From NCBI RefSeq assembly GCF_037893015.1, contig NC_133666.1:624663852-624727851 (forward strand): a stretch of DNA of 64,000 nt, in the 5' to 3' direction. The DNA comes from Macrotis lagotis (taxonomy: Eukaryota > Chordata > Mammalia > Peramelemorphia > Peramelidae). The notes under the pieces were generated by a model, which was not told the DNA's origin, ran no database searches, and saw only the letters and a program-made list of their open reading frames with translations. Every line of letters begins with the position of its first letter. Within the stretch, counting starts at the first letter, position 1. The position numbers were made by a program, and so were the translations under genes. Positions 28,601-49,413 of this stretch are shown piece by piece.

Positions 28601-30036
28601 AGCTGAGGTCAGGGGACAGGGGTCAGGGGGTCAGGGTTAGGATCTGTCCAGAATCACCATAGCTTGCTCTCTTTTCAGTCCAGCTCAGAATCTCTTTTAT
28701 GTGTCTGCTCCACATCTTGGCATAGTCCAGGGCTGCCTCCACGCCTCCTTCGCCACGCACAAGCCGGACGTCCAGTTCTTCTCCTGGGAAAAGGGGGCCA
28801 ATGAAGGGACCGAGCCCATCCTTAACCCAAGCCCCGGGCCCAGTCCTTGACCTCAGCCTGTACCTGTGAGGGGGGGGATGTCTCCAGGGAAGGAGCAGCT
28901 CCAGTTTGGGGTCTCGTTAGTCTAGGGGAAAAGCTCAGTGTTTGTTTGGTGGTCGCTAGGCCCCCAGGACCTAGGGATGAATTTTAGAGGTCTCAGCAGA
29001 CCCCTCTTACCTGCTCTCCTGGCTCAGGGGCATCCACTGGCTCCGAGTCCCCAACCAACATTTCCACAGCCCTGGGGGTGAGGTAAGAGAGGAGACGGAC
29101 AGGGCTGAGTCTGCGTGGAGCGGGGCTTCTGGGGTTAGGGTGGGCCCCAGGAGAATTCTGGGATGGGGGTTCGCTCTCCCCCAGCCCCGCAGCCCCCACT
29201 CACGCATTTCCCAAGGAAATCTCCAGATTGTCCAGACTCCTGAAGATGTCACTGTAGCGATTCCTGCCCCCGACAGCGGCCGGGGTCGGGGAGACACCTG
29301 GAGGCGGGGCAGGGGGTCAGGCGCACCGGGCCCCCCCCCCCCCCCCGGGCCGGCACGTGCGGGGCCTCGGCCCCCCCCCCCCGCCCGGCGCCCCGGCGGA
29401 GGGGGCGCGGCGCCGGCCCTTCCCCCACCCCACTCCGTGCGCGGCAGCGGCAGAGGCACTCCCCCCGCCCCCCGGCCTCCTACCGAGCGGGGCTCCTTCC
29501 ATGGCCGCGGGCGCAGGCCCGGGGGGCTGCTCGGTGGAGGCGGCCGGACGCGGCCGGGCGGAGGCCAGCCTTTCCCCTCCCCCGCCCCCCAGGCTTCCTG
29601 CTTCCGTATGGGGACCCGCCCCCCCCACAGGGCGGGGACGCCCCGGGCGGGAAGTTCGCCCCCGCCCCCGCGCCGGGCCCGCCCGAGCCCCCGGGAAGCC
29701 GCCCCCCGGCCGGGCCCGCTCACCTCGCACGGCGGCCGCCAGGGCGGCCGCGGCCCCCCGGAGCCCCGGGCCCGCCAGCGCGGGGTGCCGGCTCTGCAGC
29801 TCGGCCACCGCCCGCAGCAGGTCCGCGAGGGGCGCCTCGAGCGCGCCGGGCCCGGCCGGGGAGGGCGCGTGATGCTGCGGCCCGGGCCCCCGCGCGCCCG
29901 CGGCCCCGCGGCCCCGCTCCCGGCCCTCCCGGCACAGCGCCCGAAAGCGGAGGAATTCCCTGTTGATGAGGCGGAGGTGAGCCGAGACCCGGCGCAGCTG
30001 GCCGGGGGAGCCCCAGCCCGGGGCCAGGCTGGCCAT
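22613..30036 (-). CDS. GMIP: GMIP, GEM-interacting F-BAR/C1/RhoGAP protein (complete; two first exons)
   Basis: Twenty coding exons: 29,724-30,036 (1a) or 29,484-29,502 (1b), then 29,204-29,297; 29,011-29,071; 28,864-28,921; 28,658-28,783; 28,377-28,441; 28,083-28,193; 27,834-27,914; 27,607-27,753; 27,356-27,493; 27,029-27,225; 26,794-26,894; 26,589-26,678; 26,240-26,394; 25,950-26,138; 25,319-25,456; 24,893-25,128; 24,502-24,811; 23,792-23,855; 22,613-23,061. All phases close, giving 942 aa with exon 1b (human about 970) or 1,040 aa with 1a. Domains in order are the F-BAR-like coiled coil (GVEAALDYAKMWSRH to LLQGDVELKK), a serine-rich linker (SDVDSVGGSSESRSLDSPTS), a C1 zinc finger (KCRECETFMVSG, CFLACHKRC, CGH), and a RhoGAP domain with the arginine finger in GIYRISG and the helix KMSANNLGIVFGPTLLRP. 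The family inactivates RhoA at membranes and binds the GTPase Gem. A segment present in human just before the C1 domain (containing ESSDDFEERDP) was not found with good splice sites, though similar text lies near 26,470. Confidence 0.95.
23218..23455. repeat. composite SINE in GMIP intron 19
   Basis: The plus strand shows TGGGATTTTCTTGGCAAAG and GGAGTGGTTTGCCATTTCC, then the antisense-type block AGTGACTTACCCAGGGTCAC and TTTGAACTCAGGTCTTCC. It matches the second SINE family seen at 20,040. Confidence 0.7.
25730..25948 (+). repeat. L2-like 3' end with a tandem triplicated tail
   Basis: TCTCAAGGGCAGGGACTGTA and TTTAATAAATAG are typical of L2 3' ends. The 17-mer ATAGAATTGACTTGGCA then occurs at 25,833-25,849, 25,887-25,903 and 25,932-25,948. 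The last copy runs up to the splice donor of GMIP exon 15 (intron begins at 25,949 on the minus strand). Confidence 0.75.
29484..29502 (-). CDS. GMIP: GMIP alternative first coding exon 1b (short N-terminus)
   Basis: ATG plus MEGAPL and one base, ending CTCG|GTAGGA in phase 1. It splices to the acceptor before 29,297 (CCTCCAG|GTGTCTCC), reading MEGAPLG-VSPTPAAVGGRNRYSDIF. The length of this N-terminus resembles human GMIP, which begins with about 14 residues before RKRYSDIF. The start context is GCGGCCATGG, a good Kozak match. Confidence 0.7.
29724..30036 (-). CDS. GMIP: GMIP alternative first coding exon 1a (104-residue N-terminal extension)
   Basis: From ATG at 30,034-30,036 (MASLAPGWGSPGQLRRV) to the strong donor GCGAG|GTGAGC, phase 1, compatible with the same acceptor as exon 1b. 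The frame shows GC-rich third positions and contains LINREFLRFRALCREG and ADLLRAVAELQSRHPAL. The latter resembles the ARHGAP29 text EELLRVLKSIMNKHQNL and the matching part of ARHGAP45, in the same place relative to the downstream YSDIFRSLDNLEISLGN, which itself resembles ARHGAP29 FQEVFSSIETLAFTFGN. I infer an ancestral N-terminal helical segment kept here. Expression cannot be seen from sequence. Confidence 0.6.
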
Positions 30037-30445
30037 GGGCCGGGCAGCGCCCCCGGCGGCGGCCCCCCCCGGCCCGGCTCCGAGCTTTCCGGTAGATGTG
30101 GACCATGGGCCGCCCCGGGGGCGTGGGGGCCTCACGGTCTCCCTGTGGGAGCCTGCTCCTGGGTGGCCGCGCAGGTCGGGACGGATGCAGGGGGCTGCCC
30201 CAGCCGGGCCACGGCCAGGGGTGGCTGGGCCGCATTCCAGCTCTTGGCTGGCAAGCCACGCATTAACCCCTCCCTGGCTGGGGAGGAACCTTGTAAAGAG
30301 GAGAGGCGCAGCTGCTGGGGCTGGAAATCTGGGGCAGGGAGGGAGGCCCAACAGCCCCAGACCGAAGCCTCCTCATCTGCGGCCCCATGGAGTTTCCAGT
30401 CATTAGAGGTAAAGGGAGAAGGGATGACCTCTGACATGGGGGTTG

Positions 30446-30824: not shown

Positions 30825-30830
30825 TTTATT
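30825..30830 (-). terminator. ATP13A1: ATP13A1 polyadenylation signal
   Basis: Canonical AATAAA on the minus strand, about 200 bases past the ATP13A1 stop at 31,033-31,035. Confidence 0.85.

Positions 30831-31032: not shown

Positions 31033-49413
<18,381 letters not shown>

Follow-up and report, generated by a model that had tools for sequence, protein, structure and literature searches.

A candidate ancestral first exon of GMIP in Macrotis lagotis encodes a segment similar to the N-terminal domain of ARHGAP29 and ARHGAP45

INTRODUCTION

The reference form of human GMIP is about 970 aa long and opens with a short first segment, without most of the helical segment that ARHGAP29 and ARHGAP45 carry ahead of their F-BAR domains. 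For the GMIP gene of Macrotis lagotis, an original prediction made from the DNA held that a second first exon encodes a 104-residue N-terminal extension shared with these paralogues. We asked whether this open frame, called exon 1a below, is a genuine exon of GMIP descended from a common ancestor with the paralogues' domain, a relic of such an exon, or a chance frame in GC-rich DNA.

RESULTS

GMIP gene model and its two candidate first exons

The window, i.e., the whole 64-kb stretch of DNA that was analyzed, holds on its minus strand a gene whose long model runs from 30,036 to 22,613 in 20 coding exons (3,123 nt) and, as had been claimed, closes at 1,040 aa with a single terminal stop. In this model, Pfam places a GMIP-like FCH, a C1, and a RhoGAP domain in that order; PF22699 (GMIP-like FCH/F-BAR, residues 188 to 442) and PF00620 (RhoGAP) exceed their cut-offs, and PF00130 (C1), at 25.3 bits, is slightly below its cut-off of 26.5. 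The accepted exon matches are 40 to 85% identical to human GMIP. With an F-BAR, a C1 (just under the cut-off), and a RhoGAP domain, the gene is on sequence grounds the GMIP orthologue. Its parts are as follows.

Exon 1a, 30036-29724, minus strand: ATG at 30036, 313 nt stop-free, 104 codons plus 1 nt, donor GCGAG/GTGAGC (the slash marks the splice site), phase 1.
Intron A (if exon 1a is used), 29723-29298, minus strand: holds exon 1b; by eye, a CTGAC branch-like motif and a pyrimidine-rich tract at the acceptor.
Exon 1b (candidate short exon), 29502-29484, minus strand: ATG at 29502, 19 nt, MEGAPL plus 1 nt, phase 1, weaker donor TCG/GTAGGA.
Exon 2, 29297-29204, minus strand: RYSDIFRSLDNLEISLGN, putative last helix of the N-terminal domain; preceded by intron A (phase 1) and followed by intron B (phase 2).
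Exon 3, 29071-29011, minus strand: AVEMLVGD..., aligned to FLMGEV of ARHGAP45.
Exons 4-20, 28921-22613, minus strand: F-BAR, C1, RhoGAP, and tail, open throughout.

The stop-free frame from ATG 30036 to the phase 1 donor lies exactly where it had been placed. Exons 1a and 1b turned out, again as predicted, to end in the same phase and to fit one acceptor, CCTCCAG/GTGTCTCC, both joining exon 2 in frame; the model that starts with exon 1b is 942 aa long. Scored with a donor table, the exon 1a donor reached 9.9 bits, the highest of any GT between 30300 and 29300, in keeping with its description as strong. The exon 1b donor scored 4.7, and the 18 other donors of the gene, at 3.7 to 12.3, span this value.

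Exon 1b is a candidate, supported mainly by its likeness to the human start: human GMIP begins with a short segment directly ahead of the same RYSDIF segment. It is quite possible, if rather doubtful, that exon 1a is the sole real first exon and exon 1b no more than a fortuitous ATG followed by a weak donor, in which case there would be no isoform switch here. Exon 1b has only 6 codons, lies inside intron A, was proposed solely by that likeness, and has a donor of 4.7 bits versus 9.9 for exon 1a. Against this reading stand the short opening of human GMIP just ahead of RYSDIF, the G at -3 of ATG 29502, the correct phase, and a donor within the range of the gene. The alternative is compatible with the main claim for exon 1a and competes only with the two-form part of it.

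Three further observations concern the surroundings. The gene that ends immediately upstream on the same strand is presumably ATP13A1, the neighbor of GMIP in human; by eye, it has a likely stop near 31,034 and an AATAAA near 30,830. A human GMIP segment ending in ...TESSDDFEERDPD, expected between exons 13 and 14 (26588-26395, minus strand), had no match in the 64-kb window; a short stretch encoding SDDF, seen by eye in the exon 13-14 intron, may be a relic or chance. Two long G runs (29346-29331 and 29382-29371, minus strand) lie in the intron a short way before the exon 2 acceptor.

Intron positions shared with the paralogues of the same genome

A genome-wide, exon-by-exon search with the RHG29_45_N profile (PF24235) gave six matches. 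Two exceeded the cut-off; by comparison with the human proteins, we take the one on C5 to be an ARHGAP29-type gene and the one on C9 to be ARHGAP45. The four others, below the cut-off at E 3.4 to 9.7, were taken as chance; in the control, a match below the cut-off arose in 1 of 14 genomes (Thermotoga maritima). GMIP exon 1a was not among the six, an absence that is expected if the match is split across exons, yet one that lends no support.

In both paralogues the corresponding exon ends in ...KVK plus one G before GTGAG, in phase 1, and aligned to it GMIP exon 1a ends in ...AVR plus one G before GTGAGC. Intron A is in phase 1 at the same residue in GMIP, the ARHGAP29-type gene, and ARHGAP45, and the next one, intron B, is in phase 2 in all three, the exon boundaries at both introns being shared. 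The last 41 residues before the junction align without a gap, 10 being identical to each paralogue; an equally good alignment was obtained with 0 of 50,000 shuffles for the ARHGAP29-type protein and 1 of 50,000 for ARHGAP45. Since the positions and phases of introns A and B are common to the paralogues, we infer that the exon 2 acceptor is the old acceptor of intron A, that the exon 1a donor is its old partner, and that the short exon inside would be a newcomer.

The paralogues have an additional phase 1 intron between helices 1 and 2, where GMIP exon 1a is continuous. An intron within exon 1a mirroring it was ruled out by eye, with no credible donor and a length of about 60 nt.

A second ARHGAP29-type locus (L037, L042, and L043; C5:193374768 to ~193391140) lies on the same strand, about 215 kb from the one used. 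Its introns are present, the frame is shifted in the helix 2 exon, and the next exon is damaged; it is probably a decayed tandem duplicate, and either C5 copy may be the ARHGAP29 orthologue. A DNA search with the sequence spanning exons 1a and 2 returned that sequence itself and eight short matches of 70 to 78% identity. Searched as protein, GMIP exons 4-11 had at least seven matches in the gene itself and at least one in the C5 ARHGAP29-type locus; no retrocopy, which might have preserved a spliced first exon, was among the matches listed.

Codon signal and the start of translation

The open frame of exon 1a by itself is little more than chance, because the region has a G+C content of 81 to 84% and all three frames of the minus strand run through it stop-free. 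The features that go beyond chance are the in-register similarity to the paralogues, the identical intron position and phase, and a codon periodicity confined to the exon. In the proposed frame, GC content by codon position is 0.88/0.66/0.95, a spread equaled in 0 of 20,000 shuffles. There was no such signal upstream of exon 1a (2,244 of 5,000 shuffles as large) or in the intron stretch between exons 1a and 1b (2,239 of 5,000), and little between exon 1b and exon 2 (200 of 5,000). The periodicity climbs near ATG 30036 and declines at the exon 1a donor.

Two features upstream bear on the choice of the start codon.

Upstream off-frame ATG, 30106-30104, minus strand: MVHIYRKARSR..., MVHIYRKARSRAG...; in the spliced model, opens an upstream frame of 143 codons that overlaps the GMIP frame.
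G8 run, 30070-30063, minus strand: lies between ATG 30106 and ATG 30036; its length decides whether ATG 30106 is in frame.

ATG 30106 lies 70 nt upstream of ATG 30036 in an identical 10-base start context, and ATG 30036 has a C at -3. The off-frame ATGs at 30235 and 30106 both precede ATG 30036, and their frames extend past it. Together, ATG 30106 and the G8 run represent either an overlapping upstream frame or a run-length error in the assembly. Should the assembly misstate the G8 length, the extension would start further upstream; if the length is correct, translation from 30036 would require leaky scanning or transcripts that begin downstream of 30106. Of the claimed 104-residue extension, the 104 open codons from ATG 30036 stand, while the number itself hinges on ATG 30036 as a candidate start.

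These data also bear on a reading in which exon 1a is a relic, an ancestral exon that exon 1b has replaced, that has ceased to be transcribed or translated, and whose decay is yet to come. The segment is missing from the human reference form, off-frame ATGs lie upstream, and the resemblance to the paralogues is low, at 10 of 41 residues near the junction, but we find this reading improbable in view of the 104 open codons with their strong periodicity and 95% GC at third positions, a donor stronger than that of exon 1b, and the open state of the remainder of the gene.

Profile similarity to the N-terminal domain of the paralogues

Among 24,736 Pfam models, RHG29_45_N was the only family matched by exons 1a, 2, and 3 together (the N-terminal 156 residues). 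The match (E 0.0017, 19.0 bits) aligns residues 69-141 with positions 39-108 of the 108 in the profile and spans the splice junction; its score, 18.9 bits with the full protein, is below the gathering cut-off of 27.7, and the paralogue segments score 108.8 and 120.7 bits. In the long model the match (69-140) directly precedes the F-BAR domain (PF22699, 188-442). No Pfam match at E up to 10 was obtained with the short form, with exon 1a by itself, or with one off-frame reading; these negatives are limited by the HMMER filters, which discard most matches with E above 0.1. Since the true paralogue segments also reach E 0.003 to 0.2 with unrelated families, the claim for GMIP was not rested on the Pfam match. 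What is claimed from the sequence is common descent with the RHG29_45_N domain; formal Pfam membership is not reached at the cut-off.

A profile was therefore not taken from Pfam alone but also built from the ARHGAP29-type and ARHGAP45 proteins of the same genome plus two human sequences. Against it the long form scored 23.3 bits, compared with 10.7 for exons 2-3 alone, 10.3 for the short form, and 6.1 for exon 1a alone. The 23.3 bits exceeded every one of 20,000 exon 1a shuffles placed before the true exons 2-3 (maximum, 14.4), all 20,000 shuffles that kept its hydrophobic pattern (maximum, 19.0), and all 8,086 GC-rich stop-free replacements (maximum, 9.7). The latter were overlapping windows of 104 codons with a G+C content of at least 68%, drawn from the 64-kb window and nine other loci; nine loci with the gene, paralogue exons, or weak Pfam matches, as well as exon 1a's own frame, had been left out beforehand. 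Shuffled by itself, exon 1a reached at most 5.6 bits in 20,000 trials, versus 6.1 for the real one. When the profile was restricted to the two paralogues of this genome, the long form scored 20.0 bits, above all shuffles (maximum, 17.1) and all hydrophobic-pattern shuffles (maximum, 17.6; 0 of 20,000 each), and exon 1a alone gave a weak score that 20 of 20,000 shuffles equaled. The comparison with the N termini of ARHGAP29 and ARHGAP45 has two outcomes: 23.3 bits, which beats all the nulls, and a Pfam score of 19.0, which falls short of 27.7.

For exon 1a alone, as a single sequence, AlphaFold2 predicted helices at 11-47, 63-83, and 90-103 (pLDDT 75.4, pTM 0.60), and for an off-frame reading of the same DNA one helix (pLDDT 62.8, pTM 0.20); the latter is Gly/Pro rich and hence an easy control. 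The first helix (11-47) is predicted by AlphaFold2 only. A profile of the first helix alone, in which the ARHGAP45 row ends two residues past the exon joint and has one surplus residue, did not match residues 1-62. An ungapped alignment had the same best offset for both paralogues and was equaled in 102 of 2,000 shuffles with the two taken together, in 119 of 2,000 with the ARHGAP29-type protein, and in 686 of 2,000 with ARHGAP45. This similarity is not significant, and homology of the first helix is not claimed. Demonstrable similarity is, by sequence, limited to residues ~64-104 plus exons 2-3; to this extent the predicted N-terminal segment in common with the paralogues holds, the first helix being a putative part of it. 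A sequence search of the PDB gave one match, unrelated (E 0.89), and a Foldseek search of the exon 1a model against the PDB gave 104 matches, all with E above 0.001 and up to 10, a partial helical domain being uninformative there.

Stops are scarce in DNA of 81 to 84% G+C, three frames of the strand are open, and the Pfam match is below the cut-off, but a chance open frame in a CpG island with a coincidental Ala/Leu-rich helical resemblance to ARHGAP29 and ARHGAP45 is very improbable given an intron at the same residue and phase as in the paralogues, nulls that preserve composition or hydrophobic pattern or that draw on real GC-rich DNA, all of which fall short of the score of exon 1a with exons 2-3, and a codon signal confined to exon 1a.

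DISCUSSION

We put at about 0.83 the probability that GMIP has in exon 1a its ancestral 5' coding exon, encoding most of the helical N-terminal domain known from ARHGAP29 and ARHGAP45 with exons 2-3 supplying its last helix, and that the exon is used today; this figure takes in neither an isoform switch nor the packing of the domain. The reading builds on the frame, the splice-site sequences and their phase, the common intron position, the profile similarity of residues ~64-104, and the codon periodicity. The junction-spanning profile match, the intron position and phase, the nulls, and the codon signal uphold the original prediction of a GMIP first exon that encodes the N-terminal segment of the paralogues.

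Like the RHG29_45_N domain of the paralogues, the GMIP segment lies before the F-BAR domain, has introns A (phase 1) and B (phase 2), and is in register at profile positions 39-108. It differs in being strongly diverged, Ala/Gly/Arg rich, and below the Pfam cut-off, and in having a low-complexity stretch where ARHGAP29 and ARHGAP45 have their phase 1 intron between helices 1 and 2. The human short form (about 970 aa) is the same from exon 2 onwards but opens with a short segment and retains no more of the domain than its last helix. Alternative first exons whose choice decides whether an N-terminal domain is present are a general known kind, and GMIP resembles them in having two candidate starts, one acceptor, and one frame; it differs in that the longer exon is, by comparison with the paralogues, the ancestral one, and both starts here are candidates read from sequence alone. 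Exon 1a is a strong annotation result in a known family and no new kind of system. The long N terminus is not described in the parts of the open-access text that were searched, including PMC8024898, PMC3781157, and PMC12240320, which is weak evidence of absence, and automatic predictions may already hold such a model.

More tentatively, though it could well be so, the textbook form of GMIP would be a derived truncation of an ancestral vertebrate protein with a whole domain of the ARHGAP29/45 type, which marsupials would still encode, and the choice of first exon would switch between RhoGAP forms with and without a regulatory domain. A promoter would lie in the G+C-rich stretch (~30250-29000, presumably a CpG island), with transcription beginning upstream of exon 1a. 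Such transcripts would yield a GMIP of about 1,040 aa in which the complete N-terminal bundle precedes the F-BAR domain. If a second start were used, at exon 1b within intron A, it would give the 942-aa form, which, like the human form, keeps the last helix only. The whole domain may pack on the F-BAR module and tune its dimerization, its docking on membranes, or the degree to which the RhoGAP domain is restrained, and first-exon choice would then toggle GMIP between two regulatory states. Published work reports that the GAP activity of HMHA1/ARHGAP45 is inhibited by the protein's own N-terminal half (PMC3781157) and that ARHGAP45 associates with GMIP in Jurkat T cells (PMC8024898). A complete bundle beside the F-BAR domain would be well placed to change an ARHGAP45-like restraint or the pairing of GMIP with ARHGAP45.

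If the long form is made, the regulation of GMIP and the association with ARHGAP45 in Jurkat T cells, as reported in PMC8024898, merit retesting with it. If the same is true in human, GMIP constructs built from the reference form would be without the greater part of a domain retained by both sister proteins. The finding also makes an evolutionary question testable, namely, whether the domain was lost in placental mammals or merely omitted from annotation.
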